From: Candidatus Fiminaster equi
Lineage (GTDB): Bacteria > Bacillota_I > Bacilli_A > RFN20 > CAG-826
Length of the DNA stretch: 37,438 bases
Direction: 5' to 3'
Assembly: GCA_018064745.1 (NCBI GenBank)
Contig: JAGHUR010000035.1
Location: forward strand, 1 to 37,438
Of the stretch, positions 6,530 through 34,701 are shown one piece after another (positions within the stretch are counted from its first letter, which is position 1; the number at the start of each line of letters is the position of its first letter). The position numbers and the translations under genes are program-made. The notes beneath the pieces were generated by a model, which was given only the letters and a program-made list of their open reading frames with translations, was not told where the DNA came from and searched no databases.

Positions 6530-8995
6530 TTATTTCTTATAACCATCGAATCTGAATGCGACCATTGTAATGTCATCAAATTGAGCTGCGCCATCAGCGA
6601 ATTTAACGCATTCATCATAGACATATTCACAAAGTTCTTTACAAGAAGCAAACTCTTTAGCGTTAAGAATATTTTGAAGTCTTTCTTCACCAAGTTGTTC
6701 ACCTGTTGTGTTAACACCTTCGGTAACGCCATCAGTGTAAAGATAGACGACATCGCCAATTTCGAGTTTAAGTTTATTGATGCCATAAGGCATTCCATCC
6801 ATAGCTGCAAGGACTAAATTGACTGGTGCTCTTAAATATTCGAATTTGCCATTTTTGTGTTTAATGAGTGGTGGATTGTGTCCGCCATTAGCAAATGTTA
6901 ATTCACCATTAGTTAAGTCAACGCTTGCAGACCAAGCAGTAACAAACATGCCAGCTTCGTTACCTTCACAAAGTGTATCATTACCTTTGCTAAAGGCTTC
7001 ATTAATTGGCATATTAGTTTGAGCAAGTGATTTAAGAATACTCTTAGCACGCATCATAAACAATGCAGCTGGAATTCCTTTTCCAGAAACGTCAGCAATA
7101 GTGAAGTGGAAGTGTTCTTGATTTGAGAAGTAGAAATCGTAGAAGTCTCCACCAACTTCTTTAGCAGCGTGCATAGATGCGTAGATATCGAATTCTTTAC
7201 GATCCGGGAATGCAGGGAATGTTGATGGAAGAACTGCTGTTTGAATGGCTTTAGCCATTGCAAGTTCTTCATCAATACGTTTATTTGCTGCATCAATGTA
7301 ACCTTTTAAGGCATCGACTGTTTCGTTAATATCTTTAGACAAGACTTTGAATTCGGTAATGTTTCCGCCTTCAACAATTGTGTCTAATTTACCTGCTGTA
7401 ATCTTAGCAAGTGATTCGTTTGTCATTTCAATACGATCAATAACTAGTTTCTTTACAAGAACGTAAATTGTAACGAAGAACAAACCAAAGACGATAACTT
7501 CAAGGAATGTATTAATGAATACAGAAATATTACGGCTCAGGTCAGCTTCTGATGTTGGAATAAGAGAAATAGTGAAGTGAGCATCTTCGAATATGTATTG
7601 TGCGTAATAAGTAGTACCATTCATTTGAACAGTGAATGTGCTGAGATTTTTGTTTTTATAAATGCCTTCCTGCAAAGCAGAGAAGTCTTCAGGTAATTTA
7701 AAATCGATGCCTTTAGAAATAAGTCTATAGTTATCGTTTAGGACAAGTAATGAACCTGAGTTTCCAATCTTTTTATATAAAGCAATATTTTCAAGTAATC
7801 TAGCAACTCCAGCCTTATCATAACCACATTGGATAAAACCTTGTTCTTCAACTCCGTCTTTATCAAAAGTAAATCTAATTCCGACATATTTTCTTTGTTC
7901 GCCAATAGTTTCATCGGCAGGAGTTCTGAAGTTTTGTACATAAGTTTCAGGACCACCAGGTTGCAATAAACATGTAAATTCAATTGATTGTTCGTTATCA
8001 TAGAAGTTAAATGTGCCTTCATCGTATTTTGGTTCACTAGAGTGCCAAATATAACCGTCGTGGTCAACAACGTTGATTTCAACTAATCCTTCATTGTTAC
8101 AGATATCAGTTAAACCACTTTGTGTAATCTTATGAGGATAATTTGTGAGGGAATCACGAATTTTGCTCATAGATTGAACAGTTTTGTTTGCAACTTCGTT
8201 GGCTGTTTCAGTAATAGCATATTTTAAGTCGTTATCTCTTTGTTTGGTGGACATATTGCTATCAAACAAAAAAACAAAAGTTGACGAAAGTATGAATGCA
8301 ATAAAAGTCAAGGTTGATAAGGTGTATGTAAATCTACTAGTTAAAGATTTCAAATCAGGCTTTTTAAAAAATATTTTTCCACGTTCAAGAACGCCTTTAA
8401 TGAGTAAAGCAAGCAGCACTGCAACAGAGTTTGCAATTAGCATTGGTGCAGTACAAGTAGCGATAACTTCATAAGCTTTTTGATATTCGTTGGCTTTTAT
8501 AACGAAAACCATTAATAAATGGAAGACTTCAATTATTAAACCAGTAAAGAAACCAGAAAAAACTCCAGGTCTTTTATTTTCAAACGCAAAGTGTCTAATA
8601 AGCGCCGAGAATACACCTGCTAAAAATGTAGAGATTGAACAAGCAATAACTGTAAAACCAAAGTTAGTTGGATCAACAATTCCAACAATCATTCTTTCAA
8701 GGCCGCCAATCGTGCCTGCGATAATACCTGCTGGTGAGCCAAAGATTAAACCACCAATAATAACGGCAGCATCTCTAGCGTTTGCTGGGTAGGAGTGATC
8801 AAATCCAACGTTATATTGAATTGCCCAGTGAGTTCCAACGATTGCAAGACCACCAAAAACAACACCAAAAATGACTTGTTTTGGCCAATAAGGTATCTTT
8901 TTAAATTTTGTTAATTTTTCCAAATAATGGAAAATGACTGTTGCTAGAACAGGTAATAAAGCAGCAGCTGTTAATTTAAGTACTGATAACCACAT
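6530..8995 (-). CDS. SpoIIE/RsbU-type PP2C serine phosphatase with 5TMR-LYT membrane sensor
   Basis: The 821-residue protein begins with a 5TMR-LYT-like membrane domain (residues about 1-205, with NARDAAVIIGGLIFG near 72). Next are a transmembrane helix at 225-245, an extracytoplasmic Cache-like sensor at about 246-485, a second helix at about 492-515 and a HAMP-like linker. A PP2C domain of the SpoIIE class spans about 600-818. Metal and catalytic motifs are present: GGDFYDF (615-621), DVSGKG (635-640), YTDG (753-756) and DDIT (807-810), so it should be active. Family members dephosphorylate anti-sigma-factor antagonists, but no RsbV/RsbW-like partner is encoded nearby. The gene is monocistronic, divergent from the ABC exporter, and has a leaderless promoter. 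Confidence 0.92.
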   Translation of the reverse strand: MWLSVLKLTAAALLPVLATVIFHYLEKLTKFKKIPYWPKQVIFGVVFGGLAIVGTHWAIQYNVGFDHSYPANARDAAVIIGGLIFGSPAGIIAGTIGGLERMIVGIVDPTNFGFTVIACSISTFLAGVFSALIRHFAFENKRPGVFSGFFTGLIIEVFHLLMVFVIKANEYQKAYEVIATCTAPMLIANSVAVLLALLIKGVLERGKIFFKKPDLKSLTSRFTYTLSTLTFIAFILSSTFVFLFDSNMSTKQRDNDLKYAITETANEVANKTVQSMSKIRDSLTNYPHKITQSGLTDICNNEGLVEINVVDHDGYIWHSSEPKYDEGTFNFYDNEQSIEFTCLLQPGGPETYVQNFRTPADETIGEQRKYVGIRFTFDKDGVEEQGFIQCGYDKAGVARLLENIALYKKIGNSGSLLVLNDNYRLISKGIDFKLPEDFSALQEGIYKNKNLSTFTVQMNGTTYYAQYIFEDAHFTISLIPTSEADLSRNISVFINTFLEVIVFGLFFVTIYVLVKKLVIDRIEMTNESLAKITAGKLDTIVEGGNITEFKVLSKDINETVDALKGYIDAANKRIDEELAMAKAIQTAVLPSTFPAFPDRKEFDIYASMHAAKEVGGDFYDFYFSNQEHFHFTIADVSGKGIPAALFMMRAKSILKSLAQTNMPINEAFSKGNDTLCEGNEAGMFVTAWSASVDLTNGELTFANGGHNPPLIKHKNGKFEYLRAPVNLVLAAMDGMPYGINKLKLEIGDVVYLYTDGVTEGVNTTGEQLGEERLQNILNAKEFASCKELCEYVYDECVKFADGAAQFDDITMVAFRFDGYKK

Positions 8996-14047: not shown

Positions 14048-14077
14048 TTGTAAGCGCTTGCGTACATGTTGTATAAT
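14048..14077 (+). promoter_or_regulatory. Promoter of the SipW/starch-binding operon with CGYRYAT box
   Basis: TTGTAA (14048-14053), 18-base spacer, TATAAT (14072-14077). The spacer contains CGTACAT (14061-14067). Transcription should start near 14084, giving a leader of about 48 bases. That leader has a small hairpin (TGGCG 14095-14099 with CGCCA 14109-14113) just before the ribosome site. Confidence 0.65.
14049..14062 (+). promoter_or_regulatory. Predicted cre (CcpA) operator
   Basis: TGTAAGCGCTTGCG matches the Gram-positive cre consensus TGWAARCGYTWNCW at all positions but the last. It overlaps the -35, where CcpA binding usually represses. The operon encodes starch-binding proteins, a natural target for carbon catabolite control. 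Confidence 0.75.
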
Positions 14078-14131: not shown

Positions 14132-14710
14132 ATGAAAACAACCAAGGTGTTACTTTTATCGCTTGGTATGGCTTTATGTGTTGGTGGCGGAATTGGAGCC
14201 GCTGTCGCAATCACACGTCAAGCAGCTGGAAACACAGGTTCTTCAGCTTTTGACAAAGCCGTCAATCTTTATTGGGTAGAAGGAAGCTCATCTATTGAAT
14301 TAGGTGATATGGAAACATTATCCGTTAATGTCCCACAATACAGATATTTAACAGTTTCTCCAAAATCATCCGCAAGCGTTAGCGGAAATGTTGAATTAGG
14401 TTTCACATTAGCAGAAGCCACAATTGCAGAAAAAACTGCAGTATTAAAAGGCTTAACAGTTTCTGTTTATAAAACAGCATTTTTAGCAACAGATGCAACA
14501 GTTGCAAGTTTAATTGATGGCAAAACACCAGAACCAGTGTTAAATGCAACAACAAAAACTGGCACAACTTCATTTGCTGCAAAAGCTGATAGTGCAGACG
14601 CAGTTGCATATTATGCAATTCAAGTTGTTTATGATGGTTCACAAATTGGTGCAACAGAGCAACTTGCTGCAACATTAACAATTGCACAATCATTTGTTAT
14701 ACCAGCTTAA
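14132..14710 (+). CDS. Secreted protein with SipW-type signal peptide (TasA/camelysin-like context)
   Basis: The start is the ATG at 14132, preceded by AAGAAAGGAAAA. An upstream in-frame ATG at 14066 lies before the -10 element and cannot be in the mRNA. The 192-residue product has a Lys-containing N-terminus and a long hydrophobic segment ending GGGIGAAVAITRQ, as in substrates of SipW signal peptidases. The rest is Ala/Thr/Ser-rich and looks all-beta (for example LTVSVYKTAFLA, VAYYAIQVVYDG). There are no Cys residues after the signal. It is the first gene of a four-gene operon with a SipW-type peptidase, which suggests a matrix or fibre-like secreted subunit. The homology itself is not proven by motif. 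Confidence 0.78.
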   Translation: MKTTKVLLLSLGMALCVGGGIGAAVAITRQAAGNTGSSAFDKAVNLYWVEGSSSIELGDMETLSVNVPQYRYLTVSPKSSASVSGNVELGFTLAEATIAEKTAVLKGLTVSVYKTAFLATDATVASLIDGKTPEPVLNATTKTGTTSFAAKADSADAVAYYAIQVVYDGSQIGATEQLAATLTIAQSFVIPA

Positions 14711-14728
14711 TAATGGGAGGAAATAATT

Positions 14729-15625
14729 ATGAAAAAGAATAAAATTATTGGTCTCTCAGTTGCCATCCTTGGTACAGCAGTTTCAGTTGGCACCGCAGCA
14801 GCTTTATATGTCAAGAAAGCAGAAGATGCTCACTTTGGCATTGGTGCAAAATGGTCAGGACTTGATGGCACAGTTACATACAAAATTAATGATGCAACAT
14901 CAGGAACAGTTCAACCAGAATACAGAAAAGCCGAAGGCGCTGATGTTGGCGAAGGTCTTGGTGGAGAATTTACACAAGTTCACTATTCATTCCCATTAGG
15001 TGCATCATTTAGTGCAGACGTTCCAGCACAAAACTTTGTTGTTGGTAACTTCAAAGTTGAATTATCAAATATTCACACAGCTCTTCAAAATAAAGCAAAA
15101 ATTTGGGTTTGTGTAAATGGTTATACAGAAAATTCATGGGGTGCAGCAAATTATGCAACATGCTTTATGAATGCAGATGAAGCTCTTACAGCAGCAACAT
15201 ATTCTGTGAATCATGATATTGCAGTTTCTGTAAGCAAAGCACAAACAGTTGATGTTTATGTTAAATTAAATGAAGCAATTACTGATTTACTTTCTGGTGA
15301 TCACCCACTTGCTGAAGCAAAACCATTTGATATTTCAGTTTCATGGGGCGCTCCAACAAACTTCGAATTTGCTCACGTAGTTGGTAATGCAACAATGTGG
15401 CAAGAAGATGATGTCTACGCTATGGTTCCAAACATCAATAAAGCAAATAGTGAAGGCTTTGAATGGATCTTCAACAATCTTCCAGGAACAATGGGCAATG
15501 CAAAAGCCAAAAAAGGCGAAACATGGTCAGCAGATCCTGATGCAAAACTTGATGAATCAAAGACATATGATGTTTATTGGTCTGGTAGCACAACAGCCGC
15601 AGCATCATTCGTTGAACAAAAATAA
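14729..15625 (+). CDS. Secreted protein with SipW-type signal and possible C-terminal carbohydrate-binding domain
   Basis: A 298-residue product starting 18 bases after the previous stop behind GGGAGGAAA. The signal segment GLSVAILGTAVSVGTAAALY is followed by EDAHFGIGA. This resembles the ADNASFNIGA that follows the signal in the 16625 protein, so the two probably share an export and maturation signal. Residues about 35-215 look like a beta sandwich. The last 80 residues (AHVVGNATMW, GEWS-like aromatics, TYDVYWSG) have the rhythm of SusE/X25-type starch-binding modules, but this is a weak resemblance. The next element is a strong hairpin before the peptidase gene. Confidence 0.75.
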   Translation: MKKNKIIGLSVAILGTAVSVGTAAALYVKKAEDAHFGIGAKWSGLDGTVTYKINDATSGTVQPEYRKAEGADVGEGLGGEFTQVHYSFPLGASFSADVPAQNFVVGNFKVELSNIHTALQNKAKIWVCVNGYTENSWGAANYATCFMNADEALTAATYSVNHDIAVSVSKAQTVDVYVKLNEAITDLLSGDHPLAEAKPFDISVSWGAPTNFEFAHVVGNATMWQEDDVYAMVPNINKANSEGFEWIFNNLPGTMGNAKAKKGETWSADPDAKLDESKTYDVYWSGSTTAAASFVEQK

Positions 15626-15647
15626 ATTCATACTTTAATTATATTAA

Positions 15648-15673
15648 CCCTCTGCCCTTAAATGGGCAGGGGG
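15648..15673 (+). other. Intercistronic hairpin overlapping the sipW ribosome site
   Basis: A 10-bp GC-rich stem (15648-15657 with 15664-15673, one G-T pair, six-base loop) has only TTT after it, so it should terminate poorly. Its 3' arm contains AGGGGG (15668-15673), the only ribosome site for the ATG at 15684. It could hold peptidase translation below that of the secreted proteins upstream. Confidence 0.7.
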
Positions 15674-15683
15674 CTTTACCGTT

Positions 15684-16625
15684 ATGGAAGAAGAAAAGAA
15701 AACTGAACAAGCAGAACAATCAAAAGATACTTCAAAAAAGAAGAAAATTTTGAAATATGTTTTGAATGGCGTTATTTGGGGAGTAATCCTTGGATTTTTA
15801 ATTTACTCAGGATTAAAAGTAATTGATGTAAAATCCGGTTATAAATTACTTCCAAATCACTCTGCAGTTATCGTTTCAGACTCAATGAGTTATGTAAATG
15901 AAGCTAACTATTCTTATCTTGATAAGGATAACACAAAACCTATTAAGAAAAATGATGTTATTCATACATCAAATTTCAAAGATTTTGGTGATGTAAAAGT
16001 TTATGAAGATGTTGCTATTTATTTAGCAAAGGACGGAACATTAATTTGTCACCGTGTAATTGATAAATATGAAGACAATGGAATTAAGTACATCGTCACA
16101 AGAGGCGACGCAAACAATTCAACAGATGCTCCAGTTAATTTTGAATTAGTAAGAGGTAGAGTTACTTCTGTAACAGGTGGTGGTGGAGCTGTATTGTTCT
16201 TCCAATCCCCATATTTTGTTCTTGCATTATGTGGAACAGGCTTCTTTATCCTTTTAGGATATTTAATCTTTAACTTAAAAACAGAAAAGAAAGCCGCAGG
16301 CGTTGAAGGTGAATTAGCTGTTGTTGAAGAAAAACCTATTGAAGAACCAAAAGAAGAACCAGTAGCTGTAAAAAAACCTGTCGAAGAAAAACAAGCCGAG
16401 GAACCTGTTGCAGAGCCAACACCTGAAGAACCAGAACCTGTTGAAGAAAAACCAGTAGAACAACCAAAGGTTGAAGATACCCCTGAACCTGCTAAAAAGA
16501 ATGGTAGATTCATTCCAAAAGGCGGAGGTCAAAAACGTATTAATTGGCCACCAAAGAACACAAGATGGACAAAAGAAAATAATCCAACTGCAAATAAAAA
16601 GCGTGCCGAAGGAGGAGATAAATAA
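15684..16625 (+). CDS. sipW: SipW/ER-type signal peptidase I (S26B) with long Pro/Glu-rich tail
   Basis: A short charged N-terminus and a transmembrane helix (about 24-46) precede the catalytic region. That region has SDSM with nucleophile Ser67, ICHRVI with His123 in place of the bacterial Lys, and the RGDANN acidic box (Asp142). The Ser/His pair is the mark of the SipW, archaeal and ER class. A second transmembrane helix is at about 175-197. About 115 further residues follow: a Pro/Glu/Lys repeat region (about 213-270) and a basic end. Plain SipW proteins of about 190 residues lack this tail. The stop codon shares its last base with the next ATG (translational coupling). It should mature the products of 14132, 14729 and 16625. 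Confidence 0.88.
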   Translation: MEEEKKTEQAEQSKDTSKKKKILKYVLNGVIWGVILGFLIYSGLKVIDVKSGYKLLPNHSAVIVSDSMSYVNEANYSYLDKDNTKPIKKNDVIHTSNFKDFGDVKVYEDVAIYLAKDGTLICHRVIDKYEDNGIKYIVTRGDANNSTDAPVNFELVRGRVTSVTGGGGAVLFFQSPYFVLALCGTGFFILLGYLIFNLKTEKKAAGVEGELAVVEEKPIEEPKEEPVAVKKPVEEKQAEEPVAEPTPEEPEPVEEKPVEQPKVEDTPEPAKKNGRFIPKGGGQKRINWPPKNTRWTKENNPTANKKRAEGGDK

Positions 16626-17644
16626 TGAAAAATAAAAAGTTATTTGTTTCTATTTCAACTGCATTAGTATTTGGTTCAGTATTTGCAGCTTCATTTGGAA
16701 TTGCTCACGCATTACAGATTAAATCAGCTGATAATGCATCATTTAACATTGGTGCAGCGCCTGCTGAAGTAAAAACTAAAGTCTATTATCAATCAAGTTT
16801 CTTTTTCGGCGGTGAAGGAACTGTTTATGCATACGCTTGGGATAGCAGTGATGATTCACATAAGAATGCTGCATGGCCAGGCGAAGCAATGACAGCAGAA
16901 GATTACAAGCATGGTCTTTATTCATACGAAGTATCGGATAAATATGACACAATTATTTTCCATGCAAATGCTGGAGAAAGTGATCCAACAAAAACATCTA
17001 ATTTAACTATTGATAGAACTAATGTTTATTATTCCCAACATAACAATGTTTGGAAATCAAAACTCGAGGATTGTACATTCGCTTATTATTTAATTGGTAG
17101 CTTTAATAGCTGGGGTGAAAATAAGTACGAAAATGGTTTACTTAAGAATTTTGCAGGTGGAAATACTGCCGAATATATGAAAGTCGACTATCAATTCAAA
17201 AAAGATGATGAATTTAAAGTAGTTGATGAAGGCAAGGAAAATTGGTACGGAACAGGAAAATCTGAAGCTGGCGGAAATTATCTTGTTCATATGAACAATA
17301 GTGGAAACGCTACAGCATTTGTTTACTTTAATCCAACCACAACAAATTTATATGCTGGTACAAATTTCTATTATAATGCTAATGGAACTTCTTACGGATA
17401 CAAATTCTGGTGCCATCATTGGTATGATGCTACTGGTGCCGGCACATCATGGCCTGGAAAAGAAATGACTAGAGATGGTGGTAGCGGTTCATATTGGTAT
17501 TACGCAATGGTAGATGTTTCTTGTGATAGTATTATATTCAATAACCAAGGCGATGGTGGAAGCGGCAATTTAAAGACTGCTGATCTTAAAAACATTGATG
17601 CTGCAAAACCATATTACGATGGTGGTTGGAAAGCATCTAAATAA
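16625..17644 (+). CDS. Secreted starch-binding protein: CBM26-like, SusE/CBM48-like, CBM26-like
   Basis: A 339-residue product with an N-terminal signal (hydrophobic to about residue 29, then ADNASFNIGA). Residues about 50-145 form a CBM26-like starch-binding module (TVYAYAWD, AWPGEAMT, YDTIIFHANAG, NLTIDRTNVYY). Residues about 152-242 resemble a SusE/CBM48-type module (YYLIGSFNSWG, DEFKVVDEG). Residues about 245-335 are a second CBM26-like module (YKFWCHHWYD, SWPGKEMTRDG, DSIIFNNQGDGG). There is no catalytic domain, so it should bind starch or glycogen rather than cut it. It is the last gene of the cre-controlled operon and overlaps sipW by one base behind a GGAGG site. No LPXTG or transmembrane anchor is visible. 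Confidence 0.87.
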   Translation: MKNKKLFVSISTALVFGSVFAASFGIAHALQIKSADNASFNIGAAPAEVKTKVYYQSSFFFGGEGTVYAYAWDSSDDSHKNAAWPGEAMTAEDYKHGLYSYEVSDKYDTIIFHANAGESDPTKTSNLTIDRTNVYYSQHNNVWKSKLEDCTFAYYLIGSFNSWGENKYENGLLKNFAGGNTAEYMKVDYQFKKDDEFKVVDEGKENWYGTGKSEAGGNYLVHMNNSGNATAFVYFNPTTTNLYAGTNFYYNANGTSYGYKFWCHHWYDATGAGTSWPGKEMTRDGGSGSYWYYAMVDVSCDSIIFNNQGDGGSGNLKTADLKNIDAAKPYYDGGWKASK

Positions 17645-19133: not shown

Positions 19134-20975
19134 ATGAAAAATAGAATTATGGGCATACTTGCTCTAGCATCATGCGTGGTGCTCTCAGGCTGTGGCGACA
19201 AGGAAGAAGCCAAAATCGTTATTAGCGAATTGCCAACTAATTTAGTTGAAGGTAATCAAATTGATCTTAAAGATTACATTACTGTTTCTGGTGGAACAGG
19301 TGGTTACTCAATTAACTTCGATGATGATTCATTCGCAAAAATCACACAAGAAAGCGAAACTTTAATCACTTTAAATGAAATGGGAAATGTCTCGTTTACT
19401 GTTGATTATTCTGGAAAAACTCAAGAAGGAACTTTAGTTGTTGGTTCCAAAATGTTAAATGATTTTGTCAGCAATGTTGAAAATGTTGGTTATGATTATC
19501 ATAATTTATATTTTGAATATGATGATGACATGAACGAGATTGGTTTACACTGGGAAAACTATGGTGAAAAACTATACATCGATAAGTACATGGATTTTGA
19601 AAGCGAAGAGTATGATTACATTGGTGGTTATGCTAAAGCTGGAGATGGAATAATTTATTCCTTTAATGAAATTCATGATGGAGATGAAGTTGATTTTGAC
19701 TTTACTTTAACAGGAAATGAACCTCTTGAAATGTCTGAATATTCAATGCAATTGAATACTATATTCCCAACATCAGGTTATACTGTTAAAAAAGAGGTAA
19801 ACGAGGAAACTGGTGAATCATATAGCTATTTAAGATTGGATGAAAACGAAAATGGCGATGTTAAAAGAGTTTTTGAAAACTTTTTTGGCTTAAATACCAA
19901 AGCTATTGAACAATATGGTTACGAAATTTCCGGTCTTGAAATTGTAGAAGACGCTCTCGTATTTGATGAAGAACTTTCATTAAATGTTTATGTCGTTTAT
20001 GGCATGGGAAATGTTGAAGGAGAAGAAGGACTACTTTGGGATGGCTTTTTATCATTTGATAAAGATGTCTTCATTAAGGGTAATATTCAAAAATATGTTG
20101 ATGATGAAGAAATTCCAGAAAGCAAATACACTCTTAATATCGATGCAATTGAAGAAGCAGTTCAAAAACACAACTATCAAATCGATTACACTTACAACTG
20201 GTACAATGCTACAGTAAGTTCTGATGGAACTAAATTAATTCGTGGTGATGCACTTAACAGAAACCCATATGTTGATCCAGCAGAAATGGAAGAATCCGGA
20301 CATTATCTCTATGAATTCTTTAACGCATTTGGTGGTTTCTCTGCATATGTTCAATCAGATAAAATCTTTGTCGATGTTCCTAATGGAACAAAGTATGGAT
20401 TAATTGAGCAATCTAATGTTGCTTGGGATTATGCATACAAAACTGATAAATACGTTGCTACAGAAAATTTAGGACGTGGAATGTTCTCAAGACAAGTTAA
20501 TGAAAAAATGTATAACTTTGAATTCTTATCAGGTATTGGATTAGGTGACGAAGAAATTAGCGTTTATGACGGAATGTTCATTAACACCAAGGAAAAAGTT
20601 TCTGAAAATGAATACAAGTACACTTTATCTGGATTAACTGCTGAATCATTGTTTACAGCATTATTTATTGAATCCATCTTTGATGGTGAATATGATCCAG
20701 AAGATGATATTAGAAGCCACTATAACACAATTGATGTTGTAGCAATCCTAATGTATGAATATGAAATTAATCAAATTCTCGATGTTGAAATTACTGAAAA
20801 GTACAACGGTAGTGAATTAACTGAATTAATTTTCGATTTTGCTTTCATTTACTACATTGAACCAGAAACACCTTATGATGATTACAAATACGTTGAATAC
20901 GTCATGTCTGCAAATGTCAAATTTGGTCAATGTGATATGCCTGAATTTGATGTTGAATTTCCAGCAGCTGAATAA
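19134..20975 (+). CDS. Large predicted lipoprotein of unknown function
   Basis: Lipobox VLSGC gives lipidated Cys20, behind a strong AAAGGAGG site. Residues about 28-105 look like an Ig-like domain (TNLVEGNQIDLKDYITVSGG, then GNVSFTVDYSG and GTLVVG). The remaining 500 residues are rich in Asp, Glu and Tyr with long beta segments and no recognisable catalytic motif. It is acidic overall and has no transmembrane anchor. It is monocistronic and has the strongest promoter of the window, so it may be an abundant surface protein. Confidence 0.8.
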   Translation: MKNRIMGILALASCVVLSGCGDKEEAKIVISELPTNLVEGNQIDLKDYITVSGGTGGYSINFDDDSFAKITQESETLITLNEMGNVSFTVDYSGKTQEGTLVVGSKMLNDFVSNVENVGYDYHNLYFEYDDDMNEIGLHWENYGEKLYIDKYMDFESEEYDYIGGYAKAGDGIIYSFNEIHDGDEVDFDFTLTGNEPLEMSEYSMQLNTIFPTSGYTVKKEVNEETGESYSYLRLDENENGDVKRVFENFFGLNTKAIEQYGYEISGLEIVEDALVFDEELSLNVYVVYGMGNVEGEEGLLWDGFLSFDKDVFIKGNIQKYVDDEEIPESKYTLNIDAIEEAVQKHNYQIDYTYNWYNATVSSDGTKLIRGDALNRNPYVDPAEMEESGHYLYEFFNAFGGFSAYVQSDKIFVDVPNGTKYGLIEQSNVAWDYAYKTDKYVATENLGRGMFSRQVNEKMYNFEFLSGIGLGDEEISVYDGMFINTKEKVSENEYKYTLSGLTAESLFTALFIESIFDGEYDPEDDIRSHYNTIDVVAILMYEYEINQILDVEITEKYNGSELTELIFDFAFIYYIEPETPYDDYKYVEYVMSANVKFGQCDMPEFDVEFPAAE

Positions 20976-20980
20976 TTAAG

Positions 20981-21000
20981 TATATTTGTGAACAAATATA
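20981..21000. repeat. Perfect palindrome after the 19134 gene
   Basis: TATATTTGT (20981-20989) and ACAAATATA (20992-21000) form 9-bp perfect arms around GA. It lies five bases after the stop and directly against the terminator stem. It could be a DNA operator or an extra 3' hairpin. Confidence 0.6.
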
Positions 21001-21027
21001 AGAGCACTTGCAAAAGTGCTCTTTTTT
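21001..21027 (+). terminator. Rho-independent terminator after the 19134 gene
   Basis: Perfect 9-bp stem AGAGCACTT (21001-21009) with AAGTGCTCT (21014-21022), GCAA tetraloop and six T. Confidence 0.92.
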
Positions 21028-21071
21028 GTTGGATAATACATCAACTTTTCAAAGAAAAATAAAACTATTAT

Positions 21072-21100
21072 TTGCATTCCTACGTACATGAGTGTATAAT
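21072..21100 (+). promoter_or_regulatory. Promoter of the protease-OppA operon with CGYRYAT box
   Basis: TTGCAT (21072-21077), 17 bases, TATAAT (21095-21100). CGTACATG (21083-21090) is identical to the eight bases at 14061-14068 in the SipW operon promoter. AAGGAGGAG lies before the ATG. Confidence 0.7.
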
Positions 21101-21148
21101 AACAAAGATTTTTCAATAGAAAAATAACTCAAAAAGGAGGAGAAAGAT

Positions 21149-24100
21149 ATGCTAAAAGTTGGATTACTCTGCGGTGTAATTGCAGCCATGTCAGCAACTG
21201 GTATTAAAGCTAGTCTCGATTCAAGAGTTGAATCAAAGCCTTGCGATGCTAGATTCATTGTTGAACTCAAAAATGATATCGAGAACTTAGATGCTGATGA
21301 AGCAATCAAACAACAAGACTCTGTCTTCAAACAAATCAAAAGACAGGTCAATTCAAATGTTGTCAAAGATCGTAACTTCACAATCCTTAATAACGCATTT
21401 GTTATCAAGGGAAATAAAAGTGATAAAGAAGCTATCTTAAATATTCCAGGTGTTAAAGAGGTCACAGAAGATGGCCAACACATTGTAAAACACACTGAAC
21501 GTTCAAAAGGATTCTCAATCTCAGTGAATTCTAAAGGTGGTGGAGGTTCATCGATTGATCTTACCCAAAACGCTTCAGCTATTACAATGAAGAAACCTGA
21601 TAATACAAATGATGGCGAAGGTTCATTAATTGCGGTCTTAGATAACGAATTCTATTTAAAAGGACTTGATGAGGAATACAATGCTACTAAAAAGGCGACT
21701 GAACCATTATCACCTTATAATCACGTAACATTTACTGATTTAGATCCATCAGTCCATACTCGTATTTTTAACTTTAGTGAAATGAAAACTAGAGCTAAAG
21801 CTACACATGCTTATAGCAAACTCAAAAATGGTGCAGAAGCAGGTGAAGAAGGTTCTTTATATTTTAATAGAAAGGTTCCATTCTACTTCGACTATGCTGG
21901 TGATTCTTACACAGGCTCAAGAAGCGGCGCTACTGAAGACTTCGATGTTGAATCCAAGATTGATTTACACGGTTCACACGTTGCATCTATTGCAGCAGGA
22001 AATGACCCAGATTACAAAGGCATTGCTCCAAAAGCACAACTTGCATTGATGAAAGTCTTCACAGACGTTCACTCAACTCCAGCAAGTGATGCTACAGGAA
22101 ATGGTAAATATGGTTCATTCTCTGAAATCGGATTCCTTACAGCTCTTGAAGATGCTATCTTACTCAAGGTTGATGCTATTAACGTTTCAATCGGTAGTGA
22201 CTTATCAGACTTCGAACAAGGTTCAATTTCACAAAGAACATTAGATAAACTTGCTAAAAAGGGTATCCTAAGTGCTATTTCCGCAGGAAATGGTGGTAAA
22301 TCATCTTACGCATTTACAGGTGGATATGCTAACTGGACAAGAGAAATGGTTGAAACAGGCGTCATGGGTTCGTTTGCTAATAACGCATCCACAATGACAA
22401 TCGCTTCTGGCCAACCAGAATGGACATTCTATGAGAACTCATTAAAAATTGGTGATCAAGTCGTTCCTTACGAAGACCAAATCGTCAATCGTGAAGGAGA
22501 AGCTGAAGATTATCCTAATAACGAACATAGAATGGCTCAGCTTGTTACAGGAAGCCTTGATCCAGATGTAATTCCTACACCAGAGCAACAATTAATTGAT
22601 GTTGATTATGTCTATGTTAAAGGATTTGGTGAAACTAAAGACTATAAGAACAAGGATGTAAATAATAAGGTTGTCATCGTTAATCGTGGCAAAACTTCGT
22701 TCGAAGAAAAATATACTGCCGCTGATGATGCAGGAGCAGCCGCTCTTCTTATCATTAACAATGACCCAACAGAAAACGACTTTACATTTAGATGTGACTT
22801 CGGTTCAGCAAAGGGTTCAATTTCTAAACCAGTCGCACTTGTCTTATTCAAAGATAAACCATTCTTTGAGGCAAATCCTGAAGGCAAATTCCAAATTAAG
22901 AAAAACACTTCAAGTGAGAACAAACTTAAATACACTGTAAGTGACTTCTCTACTGATGGTGCAACATATGATCTTGATTTAAAACCAGAAATTACTACAC
23001 CAGGTTCAAATATTAAAGGTGCCGTCTGGCCACAAAATAAGGAAGAAAAGAAAGTAGAAAATAGATTTAAATCCTACGAATACTTCAATGGTACTTCAAT
23101 GGCTGCACCAAACTATGAAGGTGCAATGGCAGTTCTTGTCTCAAAGCTTTCCAAAGGAATGGTTGCAGATGATGACATGACACCAGCTGAAGAAAAACAA
23201 CTTCAAGCCTTCAAAGACACCATTAATATGAGAATGATGTCAACAGCAGTTCCAATGCATGACTACGAGAAGAATCAAGAAGACAACAAAAACTCTGTTA
23301 CTTCTCCACGTATGCAAGGTGCTGGTATGGTTGACCTCGGTGCTGCATATAACACTGAAACTTATATCAAAGGTTCTGATGTAAATAATCCAGGAGAAAA
23401 ATTAAATACTTCAAAGATTTTACTCAGAAACGGAGATAAGATTGCTAATGGCAATATTAAACTTGACTTTACAGTTGTTAATGAATCTAACTCAGTTAAA
23501 TCATTTGCAATTAAATACAACGTCATGAGACCAGCAAAGGCTTTATCTAATAAAGTACTTACTGATGACTATGCAACCCCAATTGAAGTAAGCGATGTTA
23601 GAAGCTTCACAGGTTGGGAATTCTATGCTCCTGAAGAAGGCAAAGTTGTTGTTGCAGATGGTAAAGCAAACTACAAAGATGTCTTCAAAGTTTCAAAAGA
23701 TATTGAATATTACAAAACTAGAGAAGCATATGAAGCCGAAATACCAGATGGTGTTATTCCAGAAGGTTTGTATTACTGTGCAGATCAGAATCCTCAAGAA
23801 GGACAAAAGGTTAATTGGCAAATTTGCCCAGACTATGTATATCAATCTGTAAAAGATGTTGAAATTGCAGTGGTTAATGGTCCAACAATTAATGTTCCTG
23901 CTAAAGGTTCATTAGATGTTTCATTGGATGAATTTGCAATTCCAGAAGCAGAAAAGAGCAAAATTGAAGCTTTATATGAAGCTGGTACCTACATCGAAGG
24001 TTATGTCTCATTAACTGCTCAAGGCGAATATCCAGACTTATCTGTCCCATATATGGGATTCTACTCATTAAGTGATAGACATTCAGATTATGATTATTCA

Positions 24101-25312
24101 ACTGCTCCAGTTGTAGAACCATTTGAATTTGAAAAAGATCCATTAAAGATCTATGGTTCTGACCTTATCAACGATGTTTCTAAATCACTTCTTGGTAAAG
24201 ATAACGTTGAATTCGGTTCACTTATGATGGCAGGTTATGCAAAGAATCCAAGAAATATTAATACTGAAGATGTTCTTACAAATGATTCATCATTTAAAAA
24301 ACTTCCAGGATTCTACCCAGTTGGCACAGCTCCAACTGAGAATGCTTCCATTAATAAGTACACTGAAGATCCAAGTAATGATATTTACATTGGTAACCCA
24401 CTTAAATCAAATACACTTGTTATTCAACAGTTTGTTAATAGATCTGTATTAGATAACTACTACACAATTGTTAATAAAGAAACAGGCGAAGAAGTTTACC
24501 GTAATGCATTAACAGATATGTTATTCGGTACAACAATGGGTAAACCAACACTTTATAAATCACACGTTGACGCTGATTATCTTGGTGCAGGATATGTTGC
24601 TCATAGAGCATATTCAATCGCTACACTATATGATCCAGAAACAAAAGTTCCATTCCCATCAGGCGAATATGAACTTAAGTTCAATTATCAACTTGCAGCA
24701 ACTGGTACATGGGTAAGCAAAGCTTACACACTTCACATTGATGCAGAAAGCCCAGTTGTTGAATCACTTCTTGACTTCAAAGAAGACGGTGTCGATAAAG
24801 TTCGTATTGTATTTAAGGATACACGTTGCGCATACGCACTCGTTGGTTCTAACAAAGTAGAAGTTAAGTACGATGAAAAACAAAAGATTTATTATGCTGA
24901 TGTAGATAAAGAAATTATCGATTCATCAATTAATAAAAATGCAACCGAATACTCCAATTCTAGACTCATTATTAGAGCTTATGACTATGCACGTGGAGAA
25001 ACAGTTGCAATCGTCCACTTTAGTGGTGATGATTATTCTCACTTCACCATAGCTCAAGGACAAGGTTTCTCAACAAATTCAGATTTCACCTATGAAAACG
25101 GAGTCTTAAAGATCTTCGATTACAGCAGTGGATCAAAAGTTGAAGTAACTAACACAAACGGATTTGCATTCATTACTGGTGAGCCAGTTAAAAAAGCAGA
25201 TCTTGCATTAATCCTTGGCTTATCCATTGGAGGCGGTGTGCTTGCCCTCGGTGGTATTGGTGTTGGAATATACTTCTTATTAAAGAAGAAAAAAATAATT
25301 GGAGGTAAATAA
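21149..25312 (+). CDS. Membrane-anchored subtilase with PA domain (lactocepin/C5a-peptidase-like)
   Basis: A 1387-residue exported serine protease of family S8. It has a signal peptide (about 1-21) and an I9-type propeptide (about 34-113). Catalytic residues are Asp165 in IAVLDNEF, His274 in DLHGSHVASIAAG, oxyanion Asn381 in SAGNGG, and Ser650 in FNGTSMAAP. A protease-associated (PA) domain is inserted between Asn and Ser at about 484-590 (GAAALLIINND). Fn3-like and other beta domains fill about 730-1330. A C-terminal transmembrane helix (about 1357-1381, GLSIGGGVLALGGIGVGIYF) and a Lys-rich stop anchor it to the cell instead of LPXTG. The Asp motif, DNEF rather than DTG/DSG, is divergent. 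The stop is directly before the oppA-like start, pointing to casein-type feeding on peptides. Confidence 0.93.
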   Translation: MLKVGLLCGVIAAMSATGIKASLDSRVESKPCDARFIVELKNDIENLDADEAIKQQDSVFKQIKRQVNSNVVKDRNFTILNNAFVIKGNKSDKEAILNIPGVKEVTEDGQHIVKHTERSKGFSISVNSKGGGGSSIDLTQNASAITMKKPDNTNDGEGSLIAVLDNEFYLKGLDEEYNATKKATEPLSPYNHVTFTDLDPSVHTRIFNFSEMKTRAKATHAYSKLKNGAEAGEEGSLYFNRKVPFYFDYAGDSYTGSRSGATEDFDVESKIDLHGSHVASIAAGNDPDYKGIAPKAQLALMKVFTDVHSTPASDATGNGKYGSFSEIGFLTALEDAILLKVDAINVSIGSDLSDFEQGSISQRTLDKLAKKGILSAISAGNGGKSSYAFTGGYANWTREMVETGVMGSFANNASTMTIASGQPEWTFYENSLKIGDQVVPYEDQIVNREGEAEDYPNNEHRMAQLVTGSLDPDVIPTPEQQLIDVDYVYVKGFGETKDYKNKDVNNKVVIVNRGKTSFEEKYTAADDAGAAALLIINNDPTENDFTFRCDFGSAKGSISKPVALVLFKDKPFFEANPEGKFQIKKNTSSENKLKYTVSDFSTDGATYDLDLKPEITTPGSNIKGAVWPQNKEEKKVENRFKSYEYFNGTSMAAPNYEGAMAVLVSKLSKGMVADDDMTPAEEKQLQAFKDTINMRMMSTAVPMHDYEKNQEDNKNSVTSPRMQGAGMVDLGAAYNTETYIKGSDVNNPGEKLNTSKILLRNGDKIANGNIKLDFTVVNESNSVKSFAIKYNVMRPAKALSNKVLTDDYATPIEVSDVRSFTGWEFYAPEEGKVVVADGKANYKDVFKVSKDIEYYKTREAYEAEIPDGVIPEGLYYCADQNPQEGQKVNWQICPDYVYQSVKDVEIAVVNGPTINVPAKGSLDVSLDEFAIPEAEKSKIEALYEAGTYIEGYVSLTAQGEYPDLSVPYMGFYSLSDRHSDYDYSTAPVVEPFEFEKDPLKIYGSDLINDVSKSLLGKDNVEFGSLMMAGYAKNPRNINTEDVLTNDSSFKKLPGFYPVGTAPTENASINKYTEDPSNDIYIGNPLKSNTLVIQQFVNRSVLDNYYTIVNKETGEEVYRNALTDMLFGTTMGKPTLYKSHVDADYLGAGYVAHRAYSIATLYDPETKVPFPSGEYELKFNYQLAATGTWVSKAYTLHIDAESPVVESLLDFKEDGVDKVRIVFKDTRCAYALVGSNKVEVKYDEKQKIYYADVDKEIIDSSINKNATEYSNSRLIIRAYDYARGETVAIVHFSGDDYSHFTIAQGQGFSTNSDFTYENGVLKIFDYSSGSKVEVTNTNGFAFITGEPVKKADLALILGLSIGGGVLALGGIGVGIYFLLKKKKIIGGK

Positions 25313-25313
25313 A

Positions 25314-28300
25314 ATGAAAAAAGGAAAATTACTTGTAACCTCAATTGCATTTGCTCTTGCGGGAGTTGGTGCAGTATCATGTCTTAGCGGATGCGGAAAA
25401 GATGATGGACCAGAAACAAAAATTAGTTTCTCATTCTCTATCGGACTTAAATCTGGAAAAAGTGAATTCCGTGTAAACGACACTGATCAAATCGTTGTCT
25501 ATGATAATGGTGTTGATACAGCAGGTCGTAGTTACAAATATTATTCATCAAAACCAGAAGCAGCAGTTGTTGATGAAAACACTGGTGCAGTTAGCTTTAA
25601 AAAAGTCGAAAAAGATATTCTATTCTTTGTTAAAGAAGCAAAAGTATCTAATCCAGCTCAAACAGTTAGACCAGTTAGCGTTATTACAAATGAAGTTAGT
25701 GACGCAAATGGTGGTTTTAACTTCGCAAGCTCTTCAGGTAAAGAAGCTATTGAAAAAAGAACAGAAATCCTTGGCAAACTTGAAAAGTACGTCATGGATT
25801 CACACTTAACTGGTATTACACTTTTCGACAATGGTGGATTAGTCAGATATTCTGATCGTGTAAATCTTCCTACTGGCGGAAAATATGTTACTGGTTATGG
25901 CTTTGGTCTTCTTACCGAAGGTACTCTTGATCCAAATAAACCATTAACTGGTGATGATGGAAAGAAAAACCCAGATTATTTACATAGCTCAATTGCTCAA
26001 GACTCACTTAAGATTAACCAATACACAGCTACTGGTTCTCAAGTTAGTGATTTAGCAGGCTATATCACTTCCTCATATTGGGGAGCAAGACTTAAAGGAA
26101 CAGACGGATATGAATGGTATCCATCTCTTGCTGCTGACAAAGTCAAACAACCAAAGCGTGATGCCGAAGGCAAACTTATGTATGACACTGATGGCAAAAC
26201 ACTTTTGTTTGAAGATACAGCAGACGACTTCCTTGAGCCAATCCACTTAGAAGATGACAATAAACTTGGTATGTATAAAAAGTGGAGAATTTATGTTAAG
26301 ACAGACAATGACGTTAATCATTCTGTACTTAAATTCCACCAAAAACTTGTTGATGGTAAAAATATTGTTTCTGGTCCATACGATAATGAACCAGTAACAA
26401 TTGAAGACTATGTCTTCCCATACAAGATGTTATTTACAGGTTCAAATGCCCTTATTCGTGGTACTGAAATGGCTAACGATACATCTTATGGTATTAAAGG
26501 CGCCGCAAGATATTTCTCTGATACACAATCAGAACTTTCTGAAGATGCAATTAATACAAAATGGAATACATACTATGGCGGTAAACTCGGTCTTAAAGGC
26601 GGTACAGATGATGTTAATGGTTCATATCTTGATATTGAATTAATCAATGCTATTGACCCATTCACAGCAATGTATACATTATCCTCAAGCTTAGTTTCTC
26701 CTTTAAAGGAGAGTATGTTTATGGGTGCAAACGCTATTGTTCCAAATAACTTTAAGAAATCAGCTACAGCTTATGGTACATTCAATAACGAACCAGAACC
26801 AGCAAATAGCAAGATTCTTAAATACACACTTTCATGTGGTCCATTTGTTTTAACAAAATGGGATAAGAACCAACAAATCGTTTTCGCTCGTAATGATGAC
26901 TGGTTTGAATACAAAAATCCAGTTTCAGGACAACTTACTGGTAGATATAACATTCCTGGTATTAACTACCGTGTTTACGATGTTTCTCAAAACCCAGAAA
27001 AAACTTGGGATCAATTCGAATTAAGCAACCTTGACTCAGTTGGTGTTCCAACCAAGAAAGTTGCAGAATGGAGAGGAAAACCAGGTATTTATGAAACTGA
27101 GGGTGATTCAACATTTAAATTAAATGTTAACTCATGTACTCAAGAACAATGGGATGCATTCAATACAAAAGAATGGCATAACCAACCAGGTTCATGGGAT
27201 GTTAAACCATGGATGTCAAATTCTAACTTCCTTGATGGTTTATTCTACTCAATTGACAGAAAACAATTCGCTGAAAAACGTGGTGTTAAACCATCAATTA
27301 ACTACTTCTCTGATTCATATATGTCAGATCCTCAAAACGTCCTTGGACAAGGTGGCTCATATAATGCTACTGAAGCACACAAGGAAGCTGTTAAAGGATA
27401 TGAAACAATTGATGAAAATGGTAATTCAGACTATGGTTACGATTTTGACAAAGCATTATCATGCTTTAGAAATGCTGTTAAAGAGTTATCTGATCAAAAT
27501 AAGATTGCTTTAGGCACAAAAGAAAATCCAACTGAAATCCATATTCATATTAGATGGATGTATCAAACCGACGAAAAAGAATACGGCGAAGATATTAAGT
27601 ACTACTTCGAAAAAGCATTTAACGATGATGCCGTTTGTGGTGGAAAAGTTAAACTTGTTGTTGATCAAGAAGCAGTTACTAACTGGGAAGACGTTTATAA
27701 CGTTTGGATGATGAAAGGTAAATTCGACCTTGGTTTCGGTGCTATTTCCGGTAACTCATTCAACCCACTTAACTTTATGGAAGTCTTAAAGAGTGATAAC
27801 TCTTCAAGCTTCACTCTTAACTGGGGTGCATCTACAAGTCAAATCGATCCAGTTCATCCAATTGTATATGATGATGGAACAGGCGCTAAAGAATGGTCAT
27901 ACGATGGACTTTGGGAAGTTGCAGACCATGGTGGAATTTTAAACAAAGGTGTTAAAGTCGACCCAGTTAAATCTTGTAAACTTGGTGATACAACTAGAGG
28001 TGGAGTTGGCATTGCTGACTACTATAATGGTGATTTTGATTTAGAAATTCCAATTTCATTTACTACATTCTCAAGTGAAGTTGACAACGTTGAATTTGAT
28101 GTCAACAGAGTCGATGCTTATTGTTATGGTAAAGGTAACGTAACTCTTGGCGAAAAATCTGAAAGCACACTTGTTTATGATAAAGCTAACAAAGTTATCA
28201 AAATTCACGTTTCACCTGAAGTTGCTAAGGATGTTAATGACCAAATTATTGCTGGTCAACACTTTACTCCACAACAGCAAGAAGAAGATCCAGCAAAATA

Positions 28301-28412
28301 CAAAAATGTATTTACTGATGCATACTATACAAGATATTATGATTTTGAAGTTTACTTCTCAATCATAATTGGTGAAACAGCAACCGAAAACTTTGTAACA
28401 GTAAAATTATAA
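25314..28412 (+). CDS. oppA: Peptide-binding lipoprotein of an ABC importer (OppA/SBP_bac_5-like) with extra N-terminal domain
   Basis: The start is the ATG at 25314 behind GGAGG (25301-25305) inside the end of the protease gene; an earlier TTG is not needed. Lipobox CLSGC gives Cys27. A Big/Ig-like domain (about 36-125) precedes the solute-binding fold. Typical family segments are YTLSCGPFVLTKWDKNQ, WFEYKNP, SNFLDGLFYSIDRKQFAEKR, and a later FDLGFGAISGNSFNPLNFME. At 1032 residues it is about twice the usual OppA length. The function would be capture of oligopeptides for the oppBCDF permease encoded 1.4 kb downstream. It shares an operon with the protease and the next lipoprotein. Confidence 0.87.
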   Translation: MKKGKLLVTSIAFALAGVGAVSCLSGCGKDDGPETKISFSFSIGLKSGKSEFRVNDTDQIVVYDNGVDTAGRSYKYYSSKPEAAVVDENTGAVSFKKVEKDILFFVKEAKVSNPAQTVRPVSVITNEVSDANGGFNFASSSGKEAIEKRTEILGKLEKYVMDSHLTGITLFDNGGLVRYSDRVNLPTGGKYVTGYGFGLLTEGTLDPNKPLTGDDGKKNPDYLHSSIAQDSLKINQYTATGSQVSDLAGYITSSYWGARLKGTDGYEWYPSLAADKVKQPKRDAEGKLMYDTDGKTLLFEDTADDFLEPIHLEDDNKLGMYKKWRIYVKTDNDVNHSVLKFHQKLVDGKNIVSGPYDNEPVTIEDYVFPYKMLFTGSNALIRGTEMANDTSYGIKGAARYFSDTQSELSEDAINTKWNTYYGGKLGLKGGTDDVNGSYLDIELINAIDPFTAMYTLSSSLVSPLKESMFMGANAIVPNNFKKSATAYGTFNNEPEPANSKILKYTLSCGPFVLTKWDKNQQIVFARNDDWFEYKNPVSGQLTGRYNIPGINYRVYDVSQNPEKTWDQFELSNLDSVGVPTKKVAEWRGKPGIYETEGDSTFKLNVNSCTQEQWDAFNTKEWHNQPGSWDVKPWMSNSNFLDGLFYSIDRKQFAEKRGVKPSINYFSDSYMSDPQNVLGQGGSYNATEAHKEAVKGYETIDENGNSDYGYDFDKALSCFRNAVKELSDQNKIALGTKENPTEIHIHIRWMYQTDEKEYGEDIKYYFEKAFNDDAVCGGKVKLVVDQEAVTNWEDVYNVWMMKGKFDLGFGAISGNSFNPLNFMEVLKSDNSSSFTLNWGASTSQIDPVHPIVYDDGTGAKEWSYDGLWEVADHGGILNKGVKVDPVKSCKLGDTTRGGVGIADYYNGDFDLEIPISFTTFSSEVDNVEFDVNRVDAYCYGKGNVTLGEKSESTLVYDKANKVIKIHVSPEVAKDVNDQIIAGQHFTPQQQEEDPAKYKNVFTDAYYTRYYDFEVYFSIIIGETATENFVTVKL

Positions 28413-28429
28413 TTTTGGAGGGCAATGTT

Positions 28430-29623
28430 ATGAAAAATAATATATTTAAAATTGTAACAGCTGCTCTTGGTGTTTTTTGCCTTGCCTCTTGTGGCGAAAA
28501 TGTTTCAAAAACTGATATTAAGCCTTTCGAAGGCACTGGATATCAAGAAAGAGATTTCTTTGGAATTAAACAATTAAATAGAAGTTTATTTGTTGGACAA
28601 CCAGAATTAATCGTTCTCGATTCAATGCCACAAAATTTCCTTTCAAAGGTTAAATTCGAATCTCTTAATAATCAAATAGTCGAAGTCTCTGCTACTGGAT
28701 TAATGAATCCAGTTAGCGAGGGCTCAACTAAGATTTTGGTAAAAGATGATCAAAATAATCTTCTTGGTAAACTCAATATTTTGGTTGTTAAAGATGACGA
28801 AACAAATACTAGAAACGCATTACAAAACATTAAAGATTTATATAAGAATGGCTATGTCGAGCCTACAAAAGTTCATAAAATGGAATATTCTTATGAAGAA
28901 TATTATAGAGATGGTGTAATTGATCATGGCTATACTTCATTTGATGAAACCTATTATGACAAGACAAACGCTATTTTCTATCTCGGCGGAGACGATGTCA
29001 TGAGATATACCCGTGGCGGTGCAAGAGAAGCTGCAACTGGTCATTGGCATTTCCAAGTGCTTGGTAGAAAAACAAGAATGGTTCACATTACTGAAAATGC
29101 AAAGAACTACTATGATTTCAACTCTTCAGCATATGGAACTGAAAAATATAAGGCAATCGAGGACATTCTCAATTTATTCTTCGTCTCAGGTTCAAAAATT
29201 ATCAATGATATGCTTGAAGAATATTCAGGCAAAGATGATTTCTTAAACTTCTGTGATTTTTATAAAACTGATCCAAATCTAAACATCTATGCAGATAATG
29301 ATAATAACATTAGTGCAAACATTGTTTATAAAGATGAACCAGGTGTAGTTGATACAAAAGACGAACTTCAATATCTTGATATGTATGAAGGTACAGAGTA
29401 CATCGAAAATGATAACATTTCATTTATTTACAATAGTAATAAATGCACCGGTTATGATATTGATGCAACTTATGACTATCAATATGATGGAAGTAATTGG
29501 CAAAGAGATTTCCATAGATCAATGGAATTTGATGAAGATTTTGAACCAGAAATGTTTGATTATGAAGACAAGGAAATGCAAGAACTCGGTTTCCGTTTAG
29601 TTGATCAAATGTACGATTTATAA
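28430..29623 (+). CDS. Predicted lipoprotein with an Ig-like domain
   Basis: The ATG at 28430 follows GGAGGG (28417-28422). The lipobox is CLASC (Cys21). Residues about 40-130 resemble a Big2-like Ig domain (RSLFVGQPELIVLDS, VEVSATGLMNPVSEGSTKIL). The rest, to 397 residues, is rich in Asp, Tyr and Asn with no known motif. It is the third gene of the protease-oppA operon, 17 bases after oppA, so a role in peptide capture or protease docking is plausible but unproven. Its tandem position between the binding protein and permease operons suggests it is an accessory of the transporter. Confidence 0.8.
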   Translation: MKNNIFKIVTAALGVFCLASCGENVSKTDIKPFEGTGYQERDFFGIKQLNRSLFVGQPELIVLDSMPQNFLSKVKFESLNNQIVEVSATGLMNPVSEGSTKILVKDDQNNLLGKLNILVVKDDETNTRNALQNIKDLYKNGYVEPTKVHKMEYSYEEYYRDGVIDHGYTSFDETYYDKTNAIFYLGGDDVMRYTRGGAREAATGHWHFQVLGRKTRMVHITENAKNYYDFNSSAYGTEKYKAIEDILNLFFVSGSKIINDMLEEYSGKDDFLNFCDFYKTDPNLNIYADNDNNISANIVYKDEPGVVDTKDELQYLDMYEGTEYIENDNISFIYNSNKCTGYDIDATYDYQYDGSNWQRDFHRSMEFDEDFEPEMFDYEDKEMQELGFRLVDQMYDL

Positions 29624-29640
29624 TTCAAAAACATTTTCTA

Positions 29641-29676
29641 AAAAGGTGGCTTTCGAAAGTTGGCCATCTTTTTTTA
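29641..29676 (+). terminator. Rho-independent terminator after the protease-oppA operon
   Basis: Stem 29641-29650 with 29663-29672 (one G-T pair), self-complementary loop TTTCGAAA, and a T run. Confidence 0.8.
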
Positions 29677-29689
29677 ATTAAATTTAAGG

Positions 29690-29718
29690 TTGATATGAGA
29701 AATCTATTTTTATATAAT
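29690..29718 (+). promoter_or_regulatory. Promoter of the oppBCDF operon
   Basis: TTGATA (29690-29695), exact 17-base spacer, TATAAT (29713-29718). It lacks the CGYRYAT box. The leader of about 45 bases contains CGTTT-TGCG-AAACG (29726-29739) and AAAAC-CGGG-GTTTT (29745-29758), two small hairpins. No Shine-Dalgarno precedes the ATG at 29771. Confidence 0.8.
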
Positions 29719-29770
29719 ATAAAAGCGTTTTGCGAAACGTAAAGAAAACCGGGGTTTTTAAAAAGTCTAA

Positions 29771-30817: not shown

Positions 30818-30819
30818 TT

Positions 30820-32934: not shown

Positions 32935-32935
32935 T

Positions 32936-34699: not shown

Positions 34700-34701
34700 T
34701 C

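Follow-up and report, generated by a model that had tools for sequence, protein, structure and literature searches.

A SipW-type signal peptidase operon with putative starch-binding surface proteins as cargo in Candidatus Fiminaster equi

A contig of Candidatus Fiminaster equi (GenBank assembly GCA_018064745.1, contig JAGHUR010000035.1) was analysed over positions 1 to 37,438 of the forward strand, and this whole stretch of 37,438 nucleotides is called the window here. At positions 14132-17644 it carries a four-gene operon encoding a SipW-type signal peptidase and three secreted proteins, which we call substrates 1, 2 and 3. We conclude that the operon very probably specifies a system for the SipW-dependent export of starch-binding surface proteins. 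Export of starch-binding cargo is well supported because the gene order is conserved, starch-enzyme genes lie nearby, CBM26 fusions occur in related loci and the genome encodes a separate Lep-type peptidase. The combined explanation that we favour with moderate confidence is a dedicated export unit for such proteins that also includes their assembly. That the proteins form a fibre or layer is, as a claim of its own, tentative. Slightly more tentative is the specific version of it, a SipW-assembled, starch-gripping filament in the form of a TasA-like donor-strand fibre, with subunits bearing CBM26, CBM20 and SusE/F-like modules, which would be encoded in or near Gram-positive starch loci and be the organelle by which uncultured gut Bacilli adhere to starch granules.

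The established role of SipW systems is in biofilm matrix fibres, and gut bacteria are known to capture starch at their surface by Sus complexes and by amylosomes. If it is real, a coat or fibre of starch-binding proteins exported by SipW would be a third way of holding starch besides these two and would mean that a matrix-fibre export route had been adapted to nutrient capture. The bacteria concerned would be uncultured Bacilli of the rumen and gut, about whose feeding strategy little is known. A literature search, with subscription journals largely outside it, found no paper containing both SipW and CBM26; for SipW with starch, and for TasA with starch binding, none of the papers listed concerned such an operon. 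Because of that scope the result is not proof of novelty.

Gene layout and the SipW peptidase

The region contains four open reading frames (ORFs) in the same direction, all of them open, and their order and strand were borne out (Table 1). The original prediction had placed the peptidase among secreted proteins and a CBM26 protein devoid of an enzyme domain, and the ORFs, the Pfam results and the family models agree with that description. The open frame of substrate 1 begins at 14066; the start at 14132 was chosen, since it comes after the -10 box at 14072-14077 and is provided with a ribosome-binding site. Signal peptides of substrates 1 and 2 were recognised by inspection, and substrate 3 also has one. 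The stop codon of sipW and the start codon of substrate 3 overlap as TAATG in the window, and the two genes overlap in five of the seven operons with this gene order, the others (L118 and L038) having short gaps.

The 15684 product matched TIGR02228 (E 1.2e-8) and the SipW model NF046067 (E 8.5e-6), both below the curated cut-offs. Both models were matched by all 11 aligned family members, the best values being 1.3e-14 for NF046067 and 7.1e-14 for TIGR02228, and the best PDB matches of the family profile were SEC11C and SEC11A. S67-M68, H123-R124, G141-D142, N144 and D148 were invariant in 11 homologues. The window SipW has the Ser-His catalytic pair with the conserved GD(x)N..D motif, in place of Ser-Lys, and its catalytic residues (Ser67, His123, Asp142 and Asp148) are complete.

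Apart from the 15684 product, the genome gave no SipW-type match, and on contig C43 it also carries a single S26 peptidase of the Lep type; genome-wide statements of this kind are limited by a genome completeness of 80%. Because an ordinary Lep-type peptidase is present as well, SipW looks dedicated to the operon cargo, and a role as sole peptidase is ruled out for this genome. A related possibility is that in a reduced genome SipW acts as the general signal peptidase, its place in the operon having no special meaning. The PF10502 search for Lep-type peptidases gave no match in G033, G118 and G262, which would fit this explanation. Against it, the Lep-type enzyme was found in the window genome and in 11 of the 14 other genomes searched, it is also present in five genomes of the same genus in which SipW had no match at E 1e-6, and the sipW gene is closely linked to substrate 3 and overlaps it. 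A general role is therefore very improbable, and it is largely refuted for the window genome.

The arrangement resembles tapA-sipW-tasA of Bacillus subtilis and sipW-calY of B. cereus, in which a dedicated endoplasmic reticulum (ER)-type peptidase is likewise encoded with a few secreted cargo proteins. In B. subtilis, the coding sequences of tapA and sipW also overlap (PMC10151520), comparable to the overlap of sipW with a cargo gene here. In contrast to tapA-sipW-tasA, the order here is substrate 1, substrate 2, sipW, substrate 3, and the cargo lacks detectable TasA homology, carries starch modules and is encoded in starch loci.

Starch-binding modules and starch genes around the operon

The 16625 product (substrate 3) matched PF16738, a family of carbohydrate-binding modules (CBM26), in two stretches (E 7.3e-15; 55.3 bits against a curated cut-off of 28.1), and the Pfam search detected no enzyme domain in it. 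For the domain between them, PF16411 (SusF_SusE) matched two of six family members (best 6e-8) and not the window copy, and the single PDB match of the family profile was SusF (4fe9), weak at E 0.053. The assignment as SusE-like thus appears good at the family level and marginal for the window copy. Judged by these modules, substrate 3 probably binds starch, and its pair of CBM26 modules and its SusE/F-like domain would make it the main starch-gripping subunit.

Substrate 1 homologues were present in 11 other operons, and no Pfam domain was found in substrates 1 and 2. At the SipW loci of G019, G065, G199 and G200, a neighbour of sipW is homologous to substrate 1 in its N-terminal region (hhalign 96%, E 1e-9), and the aligned part includes the signal peptide. 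The fusion proteins of G019, G065 and G199 contain CBM26 by Pfam, and in G200 the CBM26 match falls within the gene corresponding to the fusion protein. Such fusions beside sipW were found in three genera, including that of the window, and they tie the substrate 1 domain directly to starch modules. A second sipW neighbour in G019 (L166:8919-10268) has a C-terminal CBM20 (E 3.9e-6) and adjoins genes for MalQ, phosphorylase and branching enzyme.

Substrate 2 is divided into a low-confidence N-terminus, a beta domain (about residues 64-207) and a conserved Trp-rich C-terminal domain (about 208-296), in which W18, W40 and W78 of the domain are invariant. This C-terminal domain had no PDB match, matched CBM53 only at E 0.012 in two of ten members and showed weak similarity (8.5%) to the SusE-like domain of the fusions. 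On the strength of the conserved Trp residues, it would probably supply a further starch-binding site. In G033 (L039:6902-7801), substrate 2 has an in-frame stop (TGA) at position 68, which may be an assembly error, a pseudogene or recoding.

A profile search with substrate 2 gave a substantial match in 18 genomes from nine genera and two families of one gut Bacilli order. In 17 of them sipW adjoins the substrate 2 family gene; in G262, a motif search could not confirm an adjacent sipW. The only match outside the two families in a class-wide sample of 395 genomes was weak and partial (G272, E 6e-7). The named relatives are 'Bacilli bacterium' metagenome-assembled genomes, whose sources were the goat reticulum, the omasum of yak and of roe deer, and horse faeces. 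Distribution in the window's genus is patchy, with the operon in G000 and G001 and a diverged version in G019; in G011, a contig ends with substrate 3 and the tail of sipW, next to the same phosphopantetheinyl transferase gene. Substrate 3 is placed before sipW in G159 and G162. No plasmid or viral-contig relatives pointing to a mobile origin were found.

We examined which genes lie near these operons. GH13 genes (PF00128) occurred within 10 kb of the operon in nine of the 18 genomes (about 2.4 expected, p about 2e-4) and, counted by genus, in six of nine (1.2 expected, p about 3e-4). The check proposed in the original prediction, a search for SipW next to CBM26, also gave more pairs than chance: among the matches listed, the two lay within 10 kb in eight of the 29 genomes with both (1.1 expected, p 6e-6), or in seven when G173, whose protein of 140 aa is probably not a true SipW, is left out. 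These p values are approximate, and it tells against the starch link that they assume uniform placement and that related genomes are not independent. GlgB, glycogen phosphorylase (GlgP) and GH13 lipoproteins or pullulanases were confirmed by Pfam among the operon neighbours, and MalQ and MalEFGK-type genes were read from translated sequence near several operons.

These data bear on the explanation that the locus is an ordinary SipW/TasA-type biofilm matrix operon, in which the CBMs bind the cell's own or its neighbours' alpha-glucan or a matrix polysaccharide and the starch neighbourhood is incidental. Several members of the order do have SipW beside TasA-like proteins with no recognised CBM, and half of the operon genomes lack a nearby GH13 gene. 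However, starch genes lie closer than chance in six of nine genera, and three alpha-glucan modules (CBM26, CBM20 and SusE/F-like) occur in SipW neighbours, which makes this explanation improbable.

Two known starch-capture systems share features with the proposed export of starch-binding proteins. The Ruminococcus bromii amylosome (Sas20, Sca5 and Doc22) likewise consists of non-catalytic starch-binding surface proteins of a gut Firmicute, with CBM26 and a SusE/F-like X25 module (PMC9112005). It relies on cohesin-dockerin pairing and sortase anchoring, whereas the linkage here is to SipW, and a Pfam search of the four operon proteins found no cohesin and no dockerin. Bacteroides SusE/SusF have a related starch-binding beta-sandwich domain (PF16411; SusF, 4fe9) and a non-catalytic capture role. 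They are Gram-negative outer-membrane proteins, whereas here the host belongs to the Bacilli, the cargo is linked to SipW and CBM26 flanks the domain on both sides.

Possible assembly of the exported proteins

The original prediction had proposed comparing the predicted structures of substrates 1 and 2 with TasA, and the two proteins gave different results. The AlphaFold model of substrate 1 (predicted local distance difference test, pLDDT, 75) is a beta jelly-roll, and Foldseek returned TasA (5of1) with probability 0.99 and a template modelling (TM) score of 0.44, the highest query TM within the top 50. In contrast, TasA was absent from the top 50 fold matches of substrate 2 (pLDDT 72), whose whole two-domain model gave only mixed jelly-rolls, none with E below 0.001.

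A second likeness lies in the N-termini. The xFxIGA motif that had been noted in two of the cargo proteins is present, as F.IGA, at residues 36-40 of the 14729 product and 40-44 of the 16625 product, and the ORFs of the window contain it three times (0.2 expected), the third being in an unrelated membrane protein. Its strict form is not conserved: relatives show the looser pattern [F/V/I]x[I/F]G, of which F.IGA is therefore a local form. In TasA fibres, residues 28-38 form the donor strand, and F29, I32 and F39 touch neighbouring subunits (PMC9674648). After cleavage, the N-termini read AFNDIKSKDATFASG in TasA, ALQIKSADNASFNIG in the 16625 product and ALYVKKAEDAHFGIG in the 14729 product; by eye, the hydrophobic spacing is similar, and the counterpart of the TasA donor strand by position is ALQIKS..SFNIG. 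P2' in TasA is Phe, and an aromatic residue there hinders Lep-type cleavage (PMC10269814). The hydrophobic N-terminus after the predicted cut is a feature shared with the tapA-sipW-tasA system, and the predicted jelly-roll of substrate 1 may be another.

These observations suggest the following mechanism. SipW, to judge by gene linkage, would cut the signal peptides of the three co-encoded cargo proteins, of which substrate 1, and probably substrate 2, would be beta-sandwich subunits. The freed hydrophobic N-termini, followed by [F/V/I]x[I/F]G, may act as donor strands that join the subunits into a filament or layer. The cell would then hold starch or glycogen at its surface, to be consumed by way of amylases, pullulanases and a maltodextrin importer encoded nearby or elsewhere.

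Several observations weigh against this mechanism. In the fold search with substrate 1, TasA ranked 39th (E 0.014), and the jelly-roll is a common fold. With a TasA sequence verified against the PDB, hhalign of substrates 1 and 2 gave a probability below 1%, i.e. no sequence homology, and the cargo had no Pfam match to the camelysin/TasA family. Substrate 3 is the most variable part of the operon, with a Pfam-recognisable CBM26 in only two of ten. The window itself has no nearby starch gene, its genome's GH13 genes being on contigs C9 and C36, and in nine of the 18 operon genomes no GH13 gene lies within 10 kb, in some of them owing to short contigs. No cell-anchoring motif was identified, sortase motifs not having been searched systematically. 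Because the TasA match is weak, sequence similarity is absent and substrate 2 has no TasA match, the fold evidence for TasA likeness is supportive, not decisive.

The same evidence would fit SipW exporting separate starch-binding adhesins that stay at the cell surface and do not polymerise, a Gram-positive analogue of SusD/E/F-type capture. The starch modules and starch context agree with this, as do the absence of TasA sequence homology and the weak fold match. However, the known SipW cargo proteins TasA, TapA and BsaA form or start filaments, as far as the available texts describe them (PMC9674648, PMC10151520, PMC7395162), the cargo N-termini resemble the TasA donor strand, and the substrate 1 domain that is fused to CBM26 elsewhere would need another role. 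We consider separate adhesins unlikely, though less so than an ordinary matrix operon. Of the layer or fibre exported by SipW that the original prediction envisaged, the dedicated peptidase operon with starch-module cargo stands, but the fibre or layer itself is tentative, and its assembly in the manner of TasA is no more than plausible.

A further comparison is provided by sipW-bsaABCRSD of Clostridium perfringens, where SipW-dependent export of a polymerising protein has been described (PMC7395162). BsaA builds a pellicle biofilm, and the available text of that paper mentions no carbohydrate modules. The two-component regulator genes that it describes have no counterpart in the four-gene set here.

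Regulatory elements, other SipW operons and neighbouring genes

A likely promoter upstream of substrate 1 is overlapped by a cre-like operator (Table 1). Allowing up to two mismatches, only one other such site exists in the genome, itself with two. Cre-like sites with at most one mismatch lie upstream of the first gene in four of 12 operons (p about 2e-6). The operator would couple operon expression to sugar status.

The gap between substrate 2 and sipW contains a hairpin (z -5.0 in the window), and strong hairpins with unrelated stems occupy this gap in seven of the eight operons examined. This suggests that more of substrates 1 and 2 than of SipW and substrate 3 may be made; the hairpin before sipW would hold the structural subunits in excess over the peptidase and substrate 3. 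It is comparable to the predicted terminator reported after bsaA, which splits the C. perfringens polycistron (PMC7395162).

Table 1. Positions of the operon genes and candidate regulatory elements in the window
Feature	Position	Strand	Remarks
Sigma-70-like promoter, TTGTAA-18-TATAAT	14048..14077	+	Overlapped by cre-like LacI-family operator
Cre-like operator, TGTAAGCGCTTGCG	14049-14062	+	Overlaps likely promoter
Substrate 1	14132..14710	+	192 aa; signal peptide and predicted beta jelly-roll; candidate fibre subunit
Substrate 2	14729..15625	+	298 aa; signal peptide with Tyr at P2'
GC-rich hairpin	15648..15673	+	In the substrate 2/sipW gap; may be a leaky terminator or stabilise the RNA
sipW, SipW/ER-type signal peptidase	15684..16625	+	313 aa; Ser67, His123, Asp142/Asp148; long acidic C-terminal tail
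Substrate 3	16625..17644	+	339 aa; signal peptide, CBM26, SusE/F-like domain, CBM26

Other SipW operons were also seen, and many members of the order have a different one. In G034, G056, G055 and G046 (L042, L044, L046 and L047), SipW of about 290-350 aa is encoded with TasA-like proteins, an ATP-binding cassette (ABC) transporter and, in most, a large membrane protein, with no recognised CBMs; the layout of L043 (G038) is related. A second SipW type is found in the window's genus (G001, L040:8475-10703; G004, L041:7057-9270), with cargo containing 'AAWQFNSN' and 'ASWQFNKSD' and, in the part of the locus examined, no apparent starch enzymes.

Downstream of the operon, the window (19134-36201) encodes a 613-aa lipoprotein, a 1387-aa subtilisin-like secreted protein and then an oligopeptide ABC transporter cluster with SBP_bac_5, two permeases and two ATPases. 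The same lipoprotein and subtilisin-like protease lie near the last gene of the operon in G011 (L155). Upstream, at 6530-8995, the window encodes a SpoIIE-type phosphatase with a 5TM-LYT sensor domain, in what is a small gut Bacilli genome.

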